Source: Treponema sp. | GTDB lineage: Bacteria > Spirochaetota > Spirochaetia > Treponematales > Breznakiellaceae | Assembly: GCA_031276295.1 (NCBI GenBank) | Contig: JAISNI010000043.1 | Location: forward strand, 1-41,764 | DNA length: 41,764 nt | Reading direction: 5' to 3' | Shown: piece after piece, positions 9,654 to 41,678 of the stretch | Layout: the number at the start of each line of letters is the position of its first letter | How positions within the stretch are numbered: position 1 is the first letter of the stretch | Translations under genes and position numbers: made by a program | The notes under the pieces: generated by a model | Seen by the model: the letters and a program-made list of their open reading frames with translations, nothing else | What the model was told of the DNA's origin: nothing | The model's database searches: none

Positions 9654-9785
9654 GTAATCTACTTCAGCTATCTTGCCATGAATCTGAAAGGGGTGCTGTA
9701 GTACCGTTTCTCTGTCTGGCTTATCGCCCTGGGCCAGTTTTTTGTCGCCTTTTTCGGCTTTGTCAGTATCTGGCTTCTCATGGAA
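9627..9785 (+). pseudogene. ABC-2 exporter permease (COG3694-like), N-terminal remnant with in-frame stop
   Basis: The frame from ATG 9627 gives VIYFSYLAMNLKGVL, a TAG stop (9699-9701) where Gln or Glu is expected, then YRFSVWLIALGQFFVAFFG and FVSIWLLME, the first helices of COG3694 permeases. At about 9785 the sequence passes without a stop into a transposase fragment. The rest of the permease is absent. With 224-1202 and 8870-9511 it completes the ATPase-permease-permease set of a dead exporter. Confidence 0.7.
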
Positions 9786-10301
9786 GTGAACGCGAAGGGC
9801 TACAATAATTCCTTTGACTTTGAGAAACAACTATGGCTGCTGTATTCGTTTTCCGCTAAGATGAAGCTGCCGGTCTATTACCGGCTTTTGGGCGGAAACA
9901 TCGTGGATGTGGCGGCCATGGCCCTGTGCGTGGAGGAAATGGGCCTTTCCGACGTGGTGTATATCGCCGACAAGAGCTTCTACAGCGCGTCCAACGTGGC
10001 GATGCTGGAAGCGCGGAACCTGCGGTACATCATCCCGGTCAGGCGGGACAACCGGCAGATAGACTATGGTCCTCTGGGGGACGGGGAGTTCAAGGCGAAG
10101 CGCGGCCGTTTCACCTGGCAGGGGAGAATCATCTGGTACTATCAGCACGAGGTTGGGGGGCAGGCTTTTGTCACGTATCTTGACGACCGGCTTCGGGTGG
10201 AGGAGGAACAGGATTACCTGGTCCGTATTACGCCCCATCCTGAGACACACACGGAGGCGGGGTACCGGGAACGGCTGCGGCGTTTCGGGACGCTGACCTA
10301 A
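9786..10301 (+). pseudogene. IS1634/IS4-like transposase fragment
   Basis: About 170 residues of a DDE transposase core: GYNNSFDFEKQLWLLYSFS, PVYYRLLGGNIVDVAAM, VYIADKSFYSASNVAML (one catalytic Asp in ADKSF) and LRYIIPVRRDNRQIDY. The N-terminal part and everything after about residue 170 are missing, so the frame is non-functional. It is joined in frame to the truncated permease before it. IS1634 and related IS4-group families share these motifs; I cannot choose between them. Confidence 0.7.
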
Positions 10302-24902: not shown

Positions 24903-26636
24903 ATGTTGCAATTTAATGATTATATTGCCGATTGGCCCGATGTTACCTATCCCAACTTTGCCGGCTGGCTTGCAGGTATTGAAGCTCAGTATGGGGAGAA
25001 AGATGCCATTCTTTACCGGAGCGGCGGACAAAGTGATTTTACCGTTTGGTCTTTTAAAAAATTCGCTTCCGAGTGCCGCCGTATGGCGCGCGGCCTCCTT
25101 GCAGCCGGTCTTAAAAAGGGGGATCGTGTCGCGCTCTGGGCGGATAACCGCCCCGAGTGGATGGCGGTCTGGATGGGCGCCGCTATTGCGGGCCTTATAA
25201 TTGTTCCTATAGATTATCTTGCATCCGAAAATGAATGTGCTAACATTCTTAAAATGATAAAGGCCAAGGCATTTTTCTTTGCGCTACGAAAGCAGGAATT
25301 TACGGATTCCCTCCCCTCGCGCGGCGTGGTCATCAATATCCAGGTCTGTCTGGGAAAGGACGGCAACGGCTCCTACAGTTCCTTCGGGATATGGGCGGAC
25401 CTACAAACGCTGCCCCGTGTTGAAGATATTGCCGAAAATGATCCTGTTTCTATTGTATTTACCTCCGGTACGACCGGTTTTGCAAAGGGAGTTACCCTCA
25501 GCCATCGCGGTATTATCCTCAACGCAAATGCGGCAGTACGATCCTTGCGGGCCTACCCCTCGGATGTGTTCATCAATGTATTGCCCCTTCATCATACCTA
25601 CCCCACAACCTGTTCCTTTATTTCACCTTTAACAGTTGGGGCATCCACCATTATCGTAGAGAAACTGGTCGGCAAGGTGGTGGTTGATGATATACACGAC
25701 GGCGGGGGAACCTTCCTCATTGCCGTTCCTCTGCTCTACGACAAGGTAATGGCGGCCATAGAGAAGGGCTACAATAAGCTGCCGGGCATAATCCGCCTGC
25801 CCTTAAACCTGCTGCGGCGACTGTCTCTTGCCCTGGCAAACCGAGGCAATTACCGGTTCGGCCAATGGTTCTTCCGGTTTATCCGCAAAAAGGCCGACTT
25901 GGACTCAATACGCATAATGGTTGCGGGTGGCGGCCCCTTAAATATCAAAACGGCAAACTTTTTCGATTCTTTGGGATTTAACATTGTCCACGGATACGGC
26001 ATGAGCGAGAACAGCCCCCTTATCAGCGTCAACACCCCCTGGCATAAGCGGAACAAATCCGTGGGCCTGCCGGTAAAATATACGGATGTAAAGATTATAG
26101 ACGCGAACGAAGATGGCATAGGCGAAATCGCCGTTAAATCCCCATCCATCATGCTGGGTTACTACGAAAACCCCGATGCTACCGCGGAGATGTTTACCGA
26201 AGACGGGTATCTTAAAACCGGCGATCTTGGCTACCGCGACAGCACGGGTTTTATCTATATCAACGGCAGGAAGAAGAATCTTATTGTCAGTTCAGGCGGC
26301 AAGAATATCTACCCGGAAGAGATCGAATCGCATTTTGAAGGATCGCGGATTGTTTCGGAGGTACTTATAGTCGGACGCAAGGAAAAGGAATACGGCGGCG
26401 AGCAGATATTCGCTGTCGTAGTTCCCAATCTGGAAGCCTTGACCCTGCTCTACCCGAACGAGGACCTTACCGATGAATTCCTCCATGAAAAGATCAAGGT
26501 AACCATCGAAGATGTCAACCGTACCCTCGTAGGCTATAAGAAAATTGTGGACTTTACAATCCGCAGGGAGCCCTTTGAAAAGAATGCCCAACAGAAGATC
26601 AGGCGGTTTCTCTACAAAACATACGAAAACTCCTGA
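24903..26636 (+). CDS. AMP-forming acyl-CoA/acyl-ACP synthetase (long-chain fatty acid ligase)
   Basis: A 577-residue ANL-family ligase that activates a fatty acid to acyl-AMP and transfers it to CoA or ACP. Motifs are in order: P-loop FTSGTTGFAKGVTLSHRG (SGTTG from about residue 188), VLPLHHTYPTT, GYGMSENSPLISVN, the YLKTGDLGYRDSTGFIYING hinge motif and RKKNLIVSSGGKNIYPEEIE, and the C-terminal catalytic Lys in EKNAQQKIRR. Membrane association is likely from the hydrophobic NLLRRLSLALANR area. An upstream ATG at 24852 would add 17 residues, but 24903 is the better fit. Substrate chain length cannot be read from the sequence. Confidence 0.88.
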   Translation: MLQFNDYIADWPDVTYPNFAGWLAGIEAQYGEKDAILYRSGGQSDFTVWSFKKFASECRRMARGLLAAGLKKGDRVALWADNRPEWMAVWMGAAIAGLIIVPIDYLASENECANILKMIKAKAFFFALRKQEFTDSLPSRGVVINIQVCLGKDGNGSYSSFGIWADLQTLPRVEDIAENDPVSIVFTSGTTGFAKGVTLSHRGIILNANAAVRSLRAYPSDVFINVLPLHHTYPTTCSFISPLTVGASTIIVEKLVGKVVVDDIHDGGGTFLIAVPLLYDKVMAAIEKGYNKLPGIIRLPLNLLRRLSLALANRGNYRFGQWFFRFIRKKADLDSIRIMVAGGGPLNIKTANFFDSLGFNIVHGYGMSENSPLISVNTPWHKRNKSVGLPVKYTDVKIIDANEDGIGEIAVKSPSIMLGYYENPDATAEMFTEDGYLKTGDLGYRDSTGFIYINGRKKNLIVSSGGKNIYPEEIESHFEGSRIVSEVLIVGRKEKEYGGEQIFAVVVPNLEALTLLYPNEDLTDEFLHEKIKVTIEDVNRTLVGYKKIVDFTIRREPFEKNAQQKIRRFLYKTYENS

Positions 26637-26680
26637 GAAGCGTAATCGAGCAGGAGGCTGCCGGCGGCCTGTTCACGTGA

Positions 26681-29195
<2,515 letters not shown>

Positions 29196-29352
29196 ATATA
29201 CAATTCGGTTTGTTTCGGCCTGAATTTTAACTAAGGTGAATCTGAAAGAATCAAAGCGGACGCAGATAACCGCCCCCGCTCATATCCCCCGGCCCCGGGC
29301 GATATAGGTTTTTCCAAGGCCCGCGGGGCGCTGATAAGACGGCGTTTTGTTT

Positions 29353-30099
29353 TCAACAACTATAGCTTGCAAATGAAAGCCCGATTTTGAACATGGTTTT
29401 AAGGCTGGTCTGCCGTTCCTCGGCGTTCATACCCTTGCCCGTTACATTGGAATCGGAACAGGTAAGGATGGTAAGGGCTTTTTTGCCAAGGTATGCGGCA
29501 TTGCAGTAGAGGGCATACGATTCCATATCGGTTCCGCCGCAGCCCAGGCGCGCCCACTTCTGCCAGCCCTCATCTCCTTCGGCGCTGTAGACAGAGAACA
29601 GGTCCGAAGAAAAAACGTTTCCAACCCAGTAACGGCTGCCCAGGGAACGGGCCACCGCAACCCCGTGTTCAAGAAGGCCGTAATCTGCGCAGGCCGAAAA
29701 CGTACCCGAAAGTTTGTACTGATGGGCATAGTTGGAATTACTCGAAGCCGCCAGCGCAAACACTATATCCCCTACCTCAACCTGGGGGAGCAATCCGCCG
29801 CAGGTCCCAATACGGACGATATTCTCTACCCCGTAATGGTTAAATAACTCGAAGGAGTAGATGCCTATGCTGGGAGCGCCCATGCCGGAACCCATTATGG
29901 AAAGCGGTTTGCCGCCGCAGGTTCCGGTATAGGCCAGCATACTCCTCACGCCGCTTACCTCGCGGGCATTCTCCATATAGTTTTCCGCAAAATACCGGGC
30001 CCGCAGAGGATCGCCGGGCATAAGAACCGTCTTTGCAAAGTCGCCCTGTTTTGCGCTGTTGTGCGGCGTGCTTTCGTCAGGTTTGTATAGATCATCCAT
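29353..30099 (-). CDS. deoD: Purine nucleoside phosphorylase (DeoD type)
   Basis: A 248-residue phosphorylase that splits purine nucleosides into base and (deoxy)ribose-1-phosphate. It shows VLMPGDPLRARYFAE, MGSGMGAPSIGIYS, RIGTCGGLLPQVEVGDIV, GTDMESYALYCNAAY (substrate Glu in MES) and TCSDSNVTGKGMNAEERQTS with the catalytic Asp and Arg positions kept. The start at 30099 (MDDLYKPDES) has GGGGG before it; a longer frame from 30156 is not needed. It is the last gene of the nucleoside uptake operon, 10 bp after a permease, so imported nucleosides are probably used at once. Confidence 0.93.
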   Translation of the reverse strand: MDDLYKPDESTPHNSAKQGDFAKTVLMPGDPLRARYFAENYMENAREVSGVRSMLAYTGTCGGKPLSIMGSGMGAPSIGIYSFELFNHYGVENIVRIGTCGGLLPQVEVGDIVFALAASSNSNYAHQYKLSGTFSACADYGLLEHGVAVARSLGSRYWVGNVFSSDLFSVYSAEGDEGWQKWARLGCGGTDMESYALYCNAAYLGKKALTILTCSDSNVTGKGMNAEERQTSLKTMFKIGLSFASYSC

Positions 30100-36299: not shown

Positions 36300-39200
36300 A
36301 TGGACCGCAGATTCACCACCCCTTTTAAGGCTCTGTTGCTGACGGCTTTTATTGTATGGTATCCCCGGATTGTTTACGCATCTCCTGACGGCGCCGATAC
36401 TGCGCCGGATATTTACGCTCCGCCCCTTGCCGGCGCGGGCGCGTTTGTTACCGATCAGGGCTCTTCAGCGCAGAGCGCTATAAACCCCGCAGCCGCGGGG
36501 GATGCCCAGCGCATCGTGTTTGATATAGGCTACCTGGGTCTTGCAGGCGGGGGGGATGAAACCGGATTTGGAAACGCCGTCAACCTGGGCGCCCTTGTTC
36601 CCACAAAATACGGGGTGTTCGGCGGATCATTCCGCTTTTTACAGAGTCCCTTCGACCGGAATTTCCCCGTGGGTACCACCTACGGGGGTAACGTATTCGC
36701 GGCCAAGGAACTCTACCCCGGTTTTAGCCTGGGGGCTGGGTTTAACGTAGGCTTCGGCAGCGGGACTACGGTTTCCGCGGATATCGGCGCGCGGTACAAT
36801 ATGGGCAGGATCCTGGGGTTTGATAATTTTACCGTGGGGGGCAGCCTTAAAGGTATGGGCCTTAGTTGGACGCCTTCCATGTTCAGCCTGATTGCCGGCG
36901 CATCCCTCGATTTGCTCCGTATAGACGGCGGGGAAAAGCCCGATCCGGTTAAACTGAACCTCGCCGCGGAGCTGGGCTTTCCTGCATTTTCTAATGTTAC
37001 CGGAAAGATAGGCTTTTCCGCCCTGTTTGCCGAGCTTGTGTCGGTTTCAATTTCGGAATCCTTTAACCTGCGGGAAAGTTTTGAAGGACGGGCGGCTTCT
37101 TATATCCCCTCGGTGGGCCTGGCCTTCCACCTTAACCTTGCCCCTCGTCCCGATAAACCGGCCGGTAAGATTCCCGCGGACGGCGGTATCCGTATAGATG
37201 CGGCCGCCAAGCCTCTCTACGAAGATGACTGGGCCCTGGGCGGCGGCCTTACCTGGACCCTGGGCCAGATAGACAAGACCCCGCCGGTCATCGTCCCTGA
37301 TTACCCTGAAACCGTCTGGATATCCCCCAACAATGACGGTAAGGCCGATACAATGGAATTCCCCATCACCATATCCGATAAACGCTATATCGCCGAATGG
37401 ACTATGGAGGTTAAAGATGAACAGGGCGGAACGGTACGCAGGTACCGGAATACGCCTTTGCGCGAACGGCGGGCCGGTTTTAATGAATTTATAAGCCGCA
37501 TTACCGATGTTAAGGCATCGGTGGAAGTGCCGCAATCCTTCAAATGGGACGGGATGCTGGAAGACGGGACGGTTGCCCCGGACGGGAGTTATTCGTTTGT
37601 TATCAGTTCAAAGGACGATAACGGTAATATCGGCGTTTCCCGGACCTACCAGGTGATGCTGGACAATACCCCGCCTGATGTCGAAATTGTCCGGCCCGCG
37701 GATGCGGACCTGATATTCTCGCCCGATAGCGATGGCAAGAAGGACGCCATTCGTATTGAAGCGTCCGGTTCCGGGGAGGAGCTCTGGGAGGCGGGTATCT
37801 ACGATGCGGCAGGCAACAGGATAAAGAGTTACGACGTCCGCCAGGGTTCTCCCGGGCCGGTAACCTGGGACGGCACGACCGATGACGGCCGTATAGCCGC
37901 GGATGGGGTCTACGAATTCAGGATAGGGTCCGTTGACCGGGCGCTCAATGCCGGGAATGCGGTTCTTTCCAATATCATTATTGATACAAAACAGCCCCAA
38001 GTCAGCCTTCTTATCAACGATGATTTCTTCTCGCCCAATGGGGATGGAATCAAGGATACGGTGATTTTCAGCCCGCTTACCGAAATAGCGGAGGGGATAA
38101 CCGGCTGGGAACTGCGGATTTTGGATACGGCGGAGGCCGCGGAAACCGCGGAGACCGTTGTAAGGACATTCAGGAGCGGCCGGGATACGGCCGTCCCGCC
38201 TGCCCGGCTTCCCTTTGAAGGCCGGGATGACCGGGGGAATATTCTGGCCGAGGGTGTATACCGCGGGGATATTTCGGTATTCTACGAAAACGGCTATGTA
38301 GCGGCCGCAGCTTCCCCAACCTTTACGCTGGATATAACGCCTCCCGCCGCTTCGGTGCGTATTGAGTACCAGGCATTCTCTCCAAATAACGACGGGAAGC
38401 AGGATATGATGATCTACTATCAGGAGGGATCGGAGGAAGCGGTCTGGACGGGGGAACTGCGGCCTGTTTCCGGCGATTCGGTTTCAGCGCCGGTCAAAAC
38501 GTTCCGTTTTACGGGCATACCCCCCGAACGCCTTGACTGGGATGGCCGGAACGATGACGATACCCTGTGCGAAGATACGGACTATACCTATACCCTTACC
38601 TCAACCGATGAAGCGGGGAATACCGGTTCTTCCGTGCCCGTCCGGTTCGCGTTAAGCACGATAGAAACCCCGGCGGCTCTTACCACCAATATCCTTGCTT
38701 TTTCCCCCAATGGAAGCGGGGTACAGGATACCATCATGTTACAGCCTCAGATCCAGGTAAAGTCCGATATAACCCGGTGGAAGCTGGAAATTCTAAGCGC
38801 CGGCGGGGCCCGTATACGGGCCTTTGAAGGTCAGGACGGGGCGCCCGGCACTATTCCCTGGGACGGCCGGAACGATGCCGGGAATATCGTTATGGAAGGC
38901 GATTATACGGCCAGGATTGAACTTCGCTACGGTATGGGGAACGAGCCTTCCGCGGTATCCCTGCCGTTTAACGTGGATGTTACGCCTCCCCGCGCGCAGG
39001 TACGGCTGGAGTACGGCGCTTTTTCGCCGAACAATGACGGTAATCAGGATGAACTTATCATCTATCAGGAAGGATCCGACGAAACCGCCTGGCTGGGTGA
39101 AATTTACCTGAGCGCGGCGCTGATCTCGTCCGTGAATCCGGCCCGTCCGGTACGGACCTTCCGTTTTACCGGCGTTCCCGCGCCGCGGATCGTCTGGGAC

Positions 39201-41678
39201 GGGACAAACGATGCCGGGGCCCTCGTTCCCGACGGGGAGTACAGTTACTTTTTAAGCGCGACCGATGCCGCCGGTAATACGGGCAGGTCCAATACCGTAA
39301 ACTTTCCCCTCAGCACTATAGAAACGCCTCTTATGGTAAGCGCCGATCAGCGGGCTTTCTCGCCCAACGGCGATCTTTTTAAGGACAGCGTCAACCTTAT
39401 ACCGCAGCTCCAGGTACGGACGGGCATTGTAAGCTGGAAACTTGATATCTATAGCGATCCCCTGAACGGTACAAACCCAATCAGAACCTTTGAGGGCAGG
39501 GGCGCCGTCCCCTCCGCAATCTCGTGGGACGGGCGTTCCTCAACCGGAGCCGTCGCGCGGGAAGGCGGCTATGTAGGCCGGTTTGAAGCGCGCTACGATA
39601 TGGGCAACCAGCCCTCTGCGGTGTCCCGCGCGTTTGTTCTTGATATAACGCCGCCCCGCGCAACGGTGCGGGCCGCTTTTAGCGCCTTTTCCCCGAACAA
39701 TGACGGTATTCAGGATGAAATGAGCATCTACCAGGAAGGAAGCAGCGAAGAAACCTGGACAGGCGAGATTCGCCGCGCTTCCGATACTTTGAGCGTGCCG
39801 CCGGTTAAGACCTTTACCTTGAGCGGTACGCCGCAGCCTGAGATCCGCTGGGACGGCCGAACCAACGCCGGAGCGGCGGCCCCCGATACCGCCTATTCGT
39901 ATATCCTCCGCTGCGTTGACGCGGCAGGCAATAGCGGGTCTTCCAATTCCGTGTCCTTTGTCCTTACGACGGCGGAGACGCCAGTGCAGGTAACCACCGA
40001 TCAGCGGGCTTTCTCGCCCAACGGCAACGGGGTAAAGGACAGCATCAACCTGATGCCGCAGCTTTCCATTGATACCGGTATCGTAAGCTGGAAACTTGAC
40101 ATTCTGAACGCCGGCTCGGAAACGGCCGTCCGTTCGTTTGAAGGCCGGGGAACGCCGCCCCCGTCCCTTGCCTGGGATGGAAAGACCGGCGCGGGGACGG
40201 TTGCGCCCGACGGAAACTACACCGCGCGTATAAATATGCGCTATGTGCAGGGCAATCAGCCGCAGGCGGTTTCGACCCCCTTTACCCTGGATACCCAGCC
40301 GCCGCGGGGGGCGCTTTCCTCAGCCTATACTATTTTTTCCCCGAACGGGGACGGCAAACGGGATACCCTTCCCTTGGATATACTGGGCCAGGGGAACGAC
40401 GACTGGGTTGCCGTTATTACCGACGCGAAAGGAGCGCCCGTCAGGAACTGGTCCTGGACGGGAAGGCCGCCTTCAATGCCGCTGGTATGGAACGGAACCG
40501 ACGAGGCCGGTAACAAGGTTGCGGACGGAACCTATACCGTAACCCTTACCGGCAGCGACGGCGCGGGGAATACCACCAGGCTTACCCTGCCGGGTATCGT
40601 CCTGGACACCCGCGCGCCGCGGATCATCCTGAATTCCACGGTACAGGCCCTTGCGCCCCGGCCCCGGCAGACGGCGGACGCGCTTAGGTTCAACATCAGC
40701 CTGTCCGTTCCCGAAGGCGTCTCGGACTGGCGGCTTGAACTCCGCGATGAAGCCGGCGGGGTTTTCCGTACCTTCTCGCCGGCAAACGGCAACGGGGCCG
40801 TGCCGCCTGCTTCCCTGGGGTGGAACGGGCTGGACGTACAGGGTAATGTACGGGAAGGCAGATTTACCCCGACGGTCTATGTCTCGTATACCAAGGGGGA
40901 TGAGGCACAGGCGGGCGCGCCGCCCATCCTGGTGGATGTAAGCGCGCCAGTGCTCAGGTTTACTTCCAGGCCGGAATACTTTAGCCCCGATGACGACGGG
41001 GAGGACGACGTGCTCTTTATCAACCTGAGCGCGCAGGACGCGTCCCCGATTGAAACCTGGAGCCTTGAAATCAAGGAGCCGGAAGCGCCCTATCCGGTGT
41101 TCTACCGTTTTGAGGGACGCGGCGCGCCGCCCGCGCAGCTTACCTGGGACGGGCGCAGTACGAAAAACGAACTTGTCCAGGCGGCCACGGATTATCCTTA
41201 CACCTTGCGGGCCCGGGACGCGCTTGGAAACGAGGGCATCCTGGAAGGGTTTATCGGGGTGGATGTCCTGGTTATCCGCGACGGGGACCGGCTGCGCATC
41301 CAGGTGCCGTCGATTATCTTTAGGCAGAACGCCGCGGATTTTGAAACCCTGCCCATTGCGACGGTCGCCAACAATCTGCGGGTGCTGCGGCGTATTGCCG
41401 AGATCCTGAATAAGTTTAAGGATTACAAGGTGCAGGTTGAAGGCCACGCCAACCCGACCACAAATGAGCCTGCCGCACGGGCAAAGGAAGAGCGGGAGGA
41501 GCTTCAGCCTTTAAGCGAGGCGCGGGCGCGGGCCATCGTTGAACGTCTTACCAGCTTTGGCGTTACCCGCAACCGTCTGAGTTCTCTCGGCCTGGGCGGA
41601 ACCCAGCCGGTTGTGCCCTTTAACGATAGGCCCAACTGGTGGAAGAACCGTCGCGTGGAATTTATCCTGATTAAATGA
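36300..41678 (+). CDS. Giant envelope protein: UPF0164/FadL-like barrel, 12 FlgD-type Ig modules, OmpA domain
   Basis: A 1792-residue exported protein. The signal peptide ends near VYASPDG. Residues 40-330 carry GAGAFVTDQGSSAQSAINPAA and many alternating strands with Gly/aromatic turns, as in UPF0164/PorV/FadL-like outer-membrane barrels, ending in GGGLTWTLG. Residues 335-1640 hold 12 modules, each starting with an SPN(N/G)DGxxD loop (one degenerate) and holding W(D/N)Gx(D/N)xxG, then GxY, like the Ig fold of FlgD. Two module types alternate with a period of about 218 residues. Residues 1665-1792 are an OmpA domain (LSEARARAIVERL, NRRVEFILIK) that should bind peptidoglycan. It would link outer membrane and cell wall. 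GHAN replaces the usual GHTD. AGAAGGA precedes the ATG. Confidence 0.85.
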   Translation: MDRRFTTPFKALLLTAFIVWYPRIVYASPDGADTAPDIYAPPLAGAGAFVTDQGSSAQSAINPAAAGDAQRIVFDIGYLGLAGGGDETGFGNAVNLGALVPTKYGVFGGSFRFLQSPFDRNFPVGTTYGGNVFAAKELYPGFSLGAGFNVGFGSGTTVSADIGARYNMGRILGFDNFTVGGSLKGMGLSWTPSMFSLIAGASLDLLRIDGGEKPDPVKLNLAAELGFPAFSNVTGKIGFSALFAELVSVSISESFNLRESFEGRAASYIPSVGLAFHLNLAPRPDKPAGKIPADGGIRIDAAAKPLYEDDWALGGGLTWTLGQIDKTPPVIVPDYPETVWISPNNDGKADTMEFPITISDKRYIAEWTMEVKDEQGGTVRRYRNTPLRERRAGFNEFISRITDVKASVEVPQSFKWDGMLEDGTVAPDGSYSFVISSKDDNGNIGVSRTYQVMLDNTPPDVEIVRPADADLIFSPDSDGKKDAIRIEASGSGEELWEAGIYDAAGNRIKSYDVRQGSPGPVTWDGTTDDGRIAADGVYEFRIGSVDRALNAGNAVLSNIIIDTKQPQVSLLINDDFFSPNGDGIKDTVIFSPLTEIAEGITGWELRILDTAEAAETAETVVRTFRSGRDTAVPPARLPFEGRDDRGNILAEGVYRGDISVFYENGYVAAAASPTFTLDITPPAASVRIEYQAFSPNNDGKQDMMIYYQEGSEEAVWTGELRPVSGDSVSAPVKTFRFTGIPPERLDWDGRNDDDTLCEDTDYTYTLTSTDEAGNTGSSVPVRFALSTIETPAALTTNILAFSPNGSGVQDTIMLQPQIQVKSDITRWKLEILSAGGARIRAFEGQDGAPGTIPWDGRNDAGNIVMEGDYTARIELRYGMGNEPSAVSLPFNVDVTPPRAQVRLEYGAFSPNNDGNQDELIIYQEGSDETAWLGEIYLSAALISSVNPARPVRTFRFTGVPAPRIVWDGTNDAGALVPDGEYSYFLSATDAAGNTGRSNTVNFPLSTIETPLMVSADQRAFSPNGDLFKDSVNLIPQLQVRTGIVSWKLDIYSDPLNGTNPIRTFEGRGAVPSAISWDGRSSTGAVAREGGYVGRFEARYDMGNQPSAVSRAFVLDITPPRATVRAAFSAFSPNNDGIQDEMSIYQEGSSEETWTGEIRRASDTLSVPPVKTFTLSGTPQPEIRWDGRTNAGAAAPDTAYSYILRCVDAAGNSGSSNSVSFVLTTAETPVQVTTDQRAFSPNGNGVKDSINLMPQLSIDTGIVSWKLDILNAGSETAVRSFEGRGTPPPSLAWDGKTGAGTVAPDGNYTARINMRYVQGNQPQAVSTPFTLDTQPPRGALSSAYTIFSPNGDGKRDTLPLDILGQGNDDWVAVITDAKGAPVRNWSWTGRPPSMPLVWNGTDEAGNKVADGTYTVTLTGSDGAGNTTRLTLPGIVLDTRAPRIILNSTVQALAPRPRQTADALRFNISLSVPEGVSDWRLELRDEAGGVFRTFSPANGNGAVPPASLGWNGLDVQGNVREGRFTPTVYVSYTKGDEAQAGAPPILVDVSAPVLRFTSRPEYFSPDDDGEDDVLFINLSAQDASPIETWSLEIKEPEAPYPVFYRFEGRGAPPAQLTWDGRSTKNELVQAATDYPYTLRARDALGNEGILEGFIGVDVLVIRDGDRLRIQVPSIIFRQNAADFETLPIATVANNLRVLRRIAEILNKFKDYKVQVEGHANPTTNEPAARAKEEREELQPLSEARARAIVERLTSFGVTRNRLSSLGLGGTQPVVPFNDRPNWWKNRRVEFILIK

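Follow-up and report, generated by a model that had tools for sequence, protein, structure and literature searches.

A barrel–Ig–OmpA chain of Spirochaetota as a candidate variable-length tether between outer membrane and peptidoglycan

Bacteria are divided by the way in which the outer membrane is linked to the cell wall, one half relying on Pal, OmpA and Lpp and the other on OmpM. The outer membrane of spirochaetes encloses internal flagella, and we know of no accepted main tether between outer membrane and wall in this group. A long open reading frame in a 41,764-base contig of Treponema sp. (this whole stretch of DNA is called the window below) raises the question of whether one polypeptide might make that link, as it appears to begin with an outer-membrane barrel, to continue as an array of immunoglobulin-like (Ig) modules and to end in an OmpA-type domain. 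In the open-access literature we found neither a membrane–wall tether of this build nor an earlier description of barrel, Ig and OmpA parts together in spirochaetes. The architecture is thus apparently undescribed, Ig–OmpA proteins alone being already known from Lsa66.

The frame (positions 36300..41678, plus strand) starts with ATG, is open and complete, and encodes 1792 residues. Its stop codon lies 86 bases from the contig end, in a fragmented source genome (247 contigs, 83% complete), and two-gene homologues are known among its relatives, circumstances that would suit separate genes fused by assembly or annotation. We consider such an artefact vanishingly unlikely. The genome of a congener (G001, same genus) encodes this chain too, 82% identical over the full length, so the single chain is not a product of assembly; single chains occur at more than 100 loci, including the one-contig genomes G026, G045 and G149 and the Breznakiella homolactica chromosome. 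Comparison of the window protein with that of the congener gave dN/dS values of 0.16 for the barrel, 0.14 for the Ig array and 0.15 for the OmpA part, showing that the chain is under purifying selection; a ratio of around 0.14 across all parts also argues against a chance join. An assembly join of separate genes is ruled out by the conservation of the chain in the congener and at the other loci. The first-pass annotation had read the protein as a barrel, 12 FlgD-type Ig modules and an OmpA domain in one chain, and the intact frame, the Pfam matches and the fold prediction all agree with that reading. The database neighbours are Treponema metagenome-assembled genomes, Breznakiella homolactica and Gracilinema caldarium, the last two of which have the version with 8 modules; judging from isolate names and family, the Treponema genomes presumably come from termite guts. 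Elsewhere in the window, positions 9780-10301 give a weak DDE transposase match below the cut-off, probably a remnant.

The chain opens with a Sec-type signal peptide (MDRRFTTPFKALLLTAFIVWYPRIVYA; 36300..36383, plus strand, ending directly before 36384), read from the sequence by its basic start, hydrophobic core and a cleavage-like site between VYA and SPDG. It is followed by the barrel part (residues about 29 or 35 to 323; 36384..37268, plus strand), delimited by structure prediction, Foldseek and alignment. An AlphaFold2 model of the barrel and Ig module 1, built from a 59-sequence alignment, closes into 14 strands with N-terminal helices (pLDDT 91.7, pTM 0.85), which answers the check that had been proposed for this region, a structure prediction of the N-terminal part with one module. 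Foldseek searches with this model returned FadL (2r89) and PorV (6h3i_F/8gl6_F) among the top matches, at TM-scores that were modest (0.47-0.56, normalised by target length), along with large Ig-domain proteases, since the query includes an Ig module. The Asn-Pro-Ala (NPA) motif of the hatch, described as essential in FadL (PMC8407342), is at least 90% conserved in the barrel alignment. Sequence profiles were silent: Pfam gave no significant family for 40 barrels including the N-terminal part of the window protein, Toluene_X (PF03349) matched only 1 of the 40 (E 0.012) and did not reach its cut-off, the UPF0164 profile matched none of them with an E-value limit of 0.1, and when solved structures were searched with a barrel profile, no barrel came up. 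The fold assignment therefore rests on prediction and Foldseek. By its 14 strands, N-terminal hatch and NPA motif, the barrel as modelled is FadL/PorV-like; of the earlier label 'UPF0164/FadL-type', the FadL half holds and the UPF0164 half finds no profile match. A full-length relative with four modules (L107, 859 residues) was likewise predicted to have 14 strands, four Ig domains and an OmpA fold, in a model (pLDDT 84, pTM 0.62) in which the relative placement of the domains is uncertain. A Foldseek search with this whole model returned only generic multi-Ig proteins, for example complement C3.

The predicted model also bears on the side of the membrane to which the modules are delivered. 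The last barrel strand ends at about residue 321 and Ig module 1 starts at 324, leaving a linker of 3–4 residues. Because the number of strands is even and the linker is this short, Ig module 1 would lie on the periplasmic side, and so short a linker would not reach back through a barrel whose lumen is plugged by the hatch.

The central part of the chain matches FlgD_ig (PF13860) in 7 stretches, with 185.7 bits against a cut-off of 27, and resolves into 12 modules by motif and by a pairwise module matrix and alignment. SPNxDG-type motifs stand at residues 342, 474, 578, 694, 802, 909, 1021, 1131, 1239, 1347 and 1562, with a degenerate one at 1452. Module 1 (residues 324–455; 37269..37664, plus strand), whose strand A reads TPPVIVP, was delimited by alignment, predicted structure and split homologues. 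Modules 2–3 (residues 456–675; 37665..38324, plus strand) correspond one-to-one to modules 2–3 of 8-module relatives (L040, L140, L150, L042), and modules 10–12 (residues 1329–1654; 40284..41261, plus strand), of which module 11 carries the degenerate motif, equal modules 6–8 of such relatives. Between them, modules 4–9 (residues 676–1328; 38325..40283, plus strand) are a two-module unit repeated three times: modules 4, 6 and 8 are 53–56% identical, modules 5, 7 and 9 are 49–55% identical, the nucleotide-level repeat spacing is 645–666, and all six map to just two modules, 4 and 5, in L040. The 12 modules of the window protein are thus the 8-module plan with modules 1–3 and 10–12 in one-to-one correspondence and the central pair tripled, and this computation shows that module number varies through duplication of central units. 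The array also matches the type IX cargo sorting domain (CHU_C/TIGR04131), with the best match at residues 472–546, inside the chain and not at its C-terminus; on account of this internal position we reject a reading as type IX secretion cargo. The SprA_N profile found nothing in the window's own genome, but it found nothing in the control genomes either.

The first-pass annotation had treated this architecture as a lone oddity, and a search across spirochaetes revealed instead a phylum-wide family. Matches were present in 33 of 40 relatives, where barrel, Ig and OmpA parts in one open reading frame are the rule. Among 160 genomes of the phylum, the barrel profile was found in 88, mostly in frames of about 850–1500 residues, and the Ig–OmpA profile NF053608 in 106; the single chain with all three parts occurs across most of the Spirochaetota families sampled. 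The span from barrel to OmpA domain corresponds to 8 modules in 73 of 112 chains, 4 in 24, 12 in 4, 16 in 2 and another number in 9, a concentration on multiples of four that we take as a pattern rather than a test, the sample being phylogenetically uneven and containing a few near-duplicates. Short (about 890 residues) and long (about 1350 residues) genes of this architecture occur together in eight genomes (G053, G062, G076, G093, G112, G117, G127, G183). No phylum-wide partner gene emerged from the neighbourhoods: apart from the barrel gene of split loci, no neighbour in the same direction is widespread, and the other neighbours are ordinary genes or have no Pfam family.

Several individual loci depart from this plan. 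In L083 (G077) an in-frame TGA interrupts the barrel part, for which a pseudogene, a sequencing error or recoding are possible, and in L052 (G018:C100) a frameshift in the Ig array spreads the chain over two frames of 847 and 1274 residues that overlap. One genome contains two apparently identical, inverted copies of a 1359-residue gene (G069:C95:13725-17714 and 26011-30000), either an assembly artefact or a real inverted duplication. Two others (G051 and G061) have 10–12 barrel-profile matches per genome, mostly in short frames; here the barrel family is expanded and lacks the Ig–OmpA tail.

At its far end, the chain has an OmpA C-terminal-like domain of the peptidoglycan-binding type (residues 1655–1792 and stop; 41262..41678, plus strand), identified by PF00691 (39.4 bits in the Pfam scan, cut-off 27.2; 44.9 bits in the genome search), alignment and a motif table. 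The motif by which OmpA domains bind diaminopimelate (DAP) is TD(x)7NxxLSxxRA, and the walls of most spirochaetes contain ornithine instead of DAP (PMC5104382). The window protein reads GHAN...LSEARA and does not match this motif, as the DAP-binding Asp is replaced by Asn and the motif Asn is absent, with the Arg kept. Most families that do not belong to the window's class keep TD(x)7NxxLSxxRA unchanged, whereas the class itself and a few other lineages have lost it (GHAN, GHAV). For comparison, MurE sequences were gathered with a profile (loci L226-L254). DNPR marks the DAP-adding MurE. The OmpA Asp is absent in all 13 genomes with EDPR in MurE (the window's class and f11) and present in 12 of the 15 with DNPR (absent in G041, G043 and G058), G046 having been left out as its own OmpA motif was not read. 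This correlation supports a domain that binds the cell's own wall; it is not proof, and it involves very few independent evolutionary changes and is phylogenetically confounded. Wall binding is not proven, because the key Asp of the domain is lost and no DAP binding was seen for Tp0624 of T. pallidum, whose OmpA domain has undergone a comparable loss (PMC5104382).

The EDPR of MurE, which replaces DNPR in the window's class and also in a single f11 genome, is itself a possible marker of non-DAP peptidoglycan. The window's genome encodes four further OmpA-domain proteins (L001-L004); two of them were scanned, of which L004 is MotB-like and L002 has 454 residues with only OmpA recognised.

In part of the phylum the chain is divided. 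At 23 loci, from Treponemataceae-like genomes and some family members, it is encoded by two adjacent genes (L048, L065, L066, L068, L071, L072, L134, L135, L194, L196, L207, L211-L214, L216-L223), which mostly abut or overlap by a few bases, with a largest gap of 145 bases. All 23 split barrel proteins have P-x-[ILV]-x-[ILVM] at the C-terminus, followed by a few residues, which is strand A of Ig module 1, and all 23 partners have a Sec-type signal peptide of their own, then a few residues, then YISPN, with strand A missing. In a barrel tree that was built quickly and has several long branches, 21 of the split loci group in one supported clade and the other two rows are nested elsewhere among fused chains, which points to one or two natural gene fissions inside Ig module 1 from a fused ancestor. 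Homologues with the parts as separate genes had been named at the outset as evidence that would speak against a single chain; two-gene homologues do exist, but the fission is nested within the fused state and the single chain in the window stands. The conserved strand A stub on the split barrels suggests strand donation to the partner: the C-terminal strand of the barrel would complete Ig module 1 of the partner, coupling the pair non-covalently.

The split loci also fit a periplasmic rod, since the Ig–OmpA half carries its own Sec signal in all 23 of them. Ig–OmpA stretches occur with other N-terminal parts as well, namely a lipoprotein signal or FecR-like, carboxypeptidase-like or propeller-like regions (names that come from reading the sequence), or with a signal peptide alone, the arrangement seen in Lsa66 and in genomes close to Leptospira. 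The lipoprotein and FecR-like variants fit a rod in the periplasm. Barrel-free examples are L087, L088, L089 and L113, each with a lipoprotein-like signal, a FecR-like region, four Ig modules and OmpA; further heads at L069, L070, L075, L047, L037 and L058 include propeller-like, short lipoprotein, FecR-like and carboxypeptidase-regulatory-like parts and a lipoprotein with 12 modules.

A periplasmic location of the rod is strongly supported, and here the 3–4 residue linker after strand 14 and the secretion signals of the 23 split partners uphold the reading of the first-pass annotation. An inverse-autotransporter-type surface adhesin, in which the barrel would export the Ig modules and the OmpA-like end would bind something other than the cell's own wall, appears very improbable. 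It would account for the order of barrel and Ig array, which resembles intimin, for the lost OmpA Asp and for the report of Lsa66, an Ig4–OmpA relative, on the Leptospira surface by immunofluorescence, binding host matrix proteins (PMC3130794). However, intimin and invasin have a 12-strand barrel, a linker through the pore and a surface passenger, whereas the window protein is predicted to have 14 strands, a hatch and 3–4 residues before module 1, so no linker through the pore; moreover, split Ig–OmpA halves are exported without an attached barrel and the OmpA residue tracks the MurE type.

The barrel-free forms bear on a further alternative, an anchored transporter, in which the FadL-type barrel would be primarily a channel for hydrophobic nutrients and the Ig–OmpA tail would fix or space it. 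This overlaps with a tether, and OmpM is both tether and channel (PMC10628300); the FadL/PorV fold and the conserved NPA hatch motif are what such a channel would have. We nonetheless find it rather unlikely as the primary role, in view of barrel sequences that diverge widely while the Ig–OmpA architecture is kept, and of Ig–OmpA proteins without any adjacent barrel.

The first-pass annotation had connected the rod with the periplasmic flagella. A spacer specific to these flagella would bridge the layer in which they lie, from wall to outer membrane, and be of importance only along their course; it would suit a genome that, like the window's, encodes flagellins and FliG; the short and long genes side by side in eight genomes are what two spacings would need. 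Three genomes at least 95% complete (G035, G038, G032) lack flagellin, the first two lacking FliG as well, and yet their chains contain 16, 16 and no fewer than 12 modules, and the protein has no copy in the flagellate genomes G034 (T. pallidum-sized) and f7 (Borrelia-sized). The suggested link is not borne out by these genomes, and we judge a flagellar spacer very unlikely. As a general role, it is ruled out by the occurrence of the longest rods in flagellin-less genomes. The three flagellin-less genomes are one clade in the barrel tree.

Among known systems, the closest in build are the stalked porins OmpM and SlpA of Veillonella and Deinococcus, which likewise combine in one chain a barrel, a periplasmic stalk that varies in length and an end that binds the wall, and which have been proposed as the main membrane–wall tether of a large bacterial group (PMC10628300, PMC9388160). 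Their stalk is a trimeric coiled coil with an N-terminal SLH domain, whereas the window protein has an Ig array, a C-terminal OmpA domain and a FadL-like barrel; Pfam and NCBIfam profile scans found no SLH domain in it. By analogy it may work like OmpM/SlpA, but with no SLH and no coiled coil it is no member of that family. OmpA of E. coli and OprF are also single chains that begin with a barrel and finish with an OmpA domain, though with 8 strands and a short linker, where the present family has 14 strands and 4–16 Ig modules in between. Leptospira Lsa66 (LIC10258; NF053608) has FlgD-type Ig modules followed by OmpA, and its profile matches the window protein with 391 bits over the Ig and OmpA stretches, below the 700-bit equivalog cut-off; Lsa66 is a reported surface adhesin of about 580 residues without a barrel, so that the window protein, which has one, is not Lsa66. 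FadL/PorV barrels and the FadL-like outer-membrane proteins of T. pallidum share the 14 strands, N-terminal hatch and NPA motif but have no Ig or OmpA parts, with sequence similarity below Pfam thresholds, and the two OmpA-domain proteins of T. pallidum have no barrel (PMC8407342). PorP–PorE of type IX secretion pairs a barrel with a periplasmic, multidomain, OmpA-ended partner, as the split form does here, but PorE, a lipoprotein, belongs to a secretion machine and does not have this Ig array (PMC7192894, PMC9143113). Tp0624 likewise has a spirochaete OmpA domain without the DAP-binding Asp, but with other N-terminal domains and no barrel (PMC5104382).

The best explanation of these observations, and in our view the probable one, is a phylum-wide tether of variable length between outer membrane and peptidoglycan. 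The barrel would sit in the outer membrane with both of its ends facing the periplasm, the Ig modules would form a periplasmic rod whose length is set by their number, and the OmpA domain at the far end would hold the cell wall. At roughly 4 nm per module, the rod of the window protein would measure about 45 nm if straight. In the Treponema-like subset, where Ig module 1 is divided between two adjacent genes, the donated barrel strand would probably keep the link without a covalent bond. Extrapolating from sequence and models, we infer that the chain binds the peptidoglycan of this organism, bears load, and sets or tolerates the distance between membrane and wall. A straight rod of 45–60 nm may be longer than the gap between membrane and wall, which counts against a tether. 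A more encompassing account remains tentative, and we would not put it forward as the probable one: a general outer-membrane–wall tether of Spirochaetota whose rod grows or shrinks by four Ig modules at a time, a short and a long version being present in the same cell, and, in part of Treponema, a two-protein link made by beta-strand donation.

If true, this would provide a testable main tether for a phylum with unusual envelope mechanics, with a rod length that can be counted from the sequence and a natural two-gene version, and it would put in question the adhesin label of Ig–OmpA proteins such as Lsa66. Confirmation of the split Ig module would add a new kind of coupling between an outer-membrane barrel and a partner in the periplasm.
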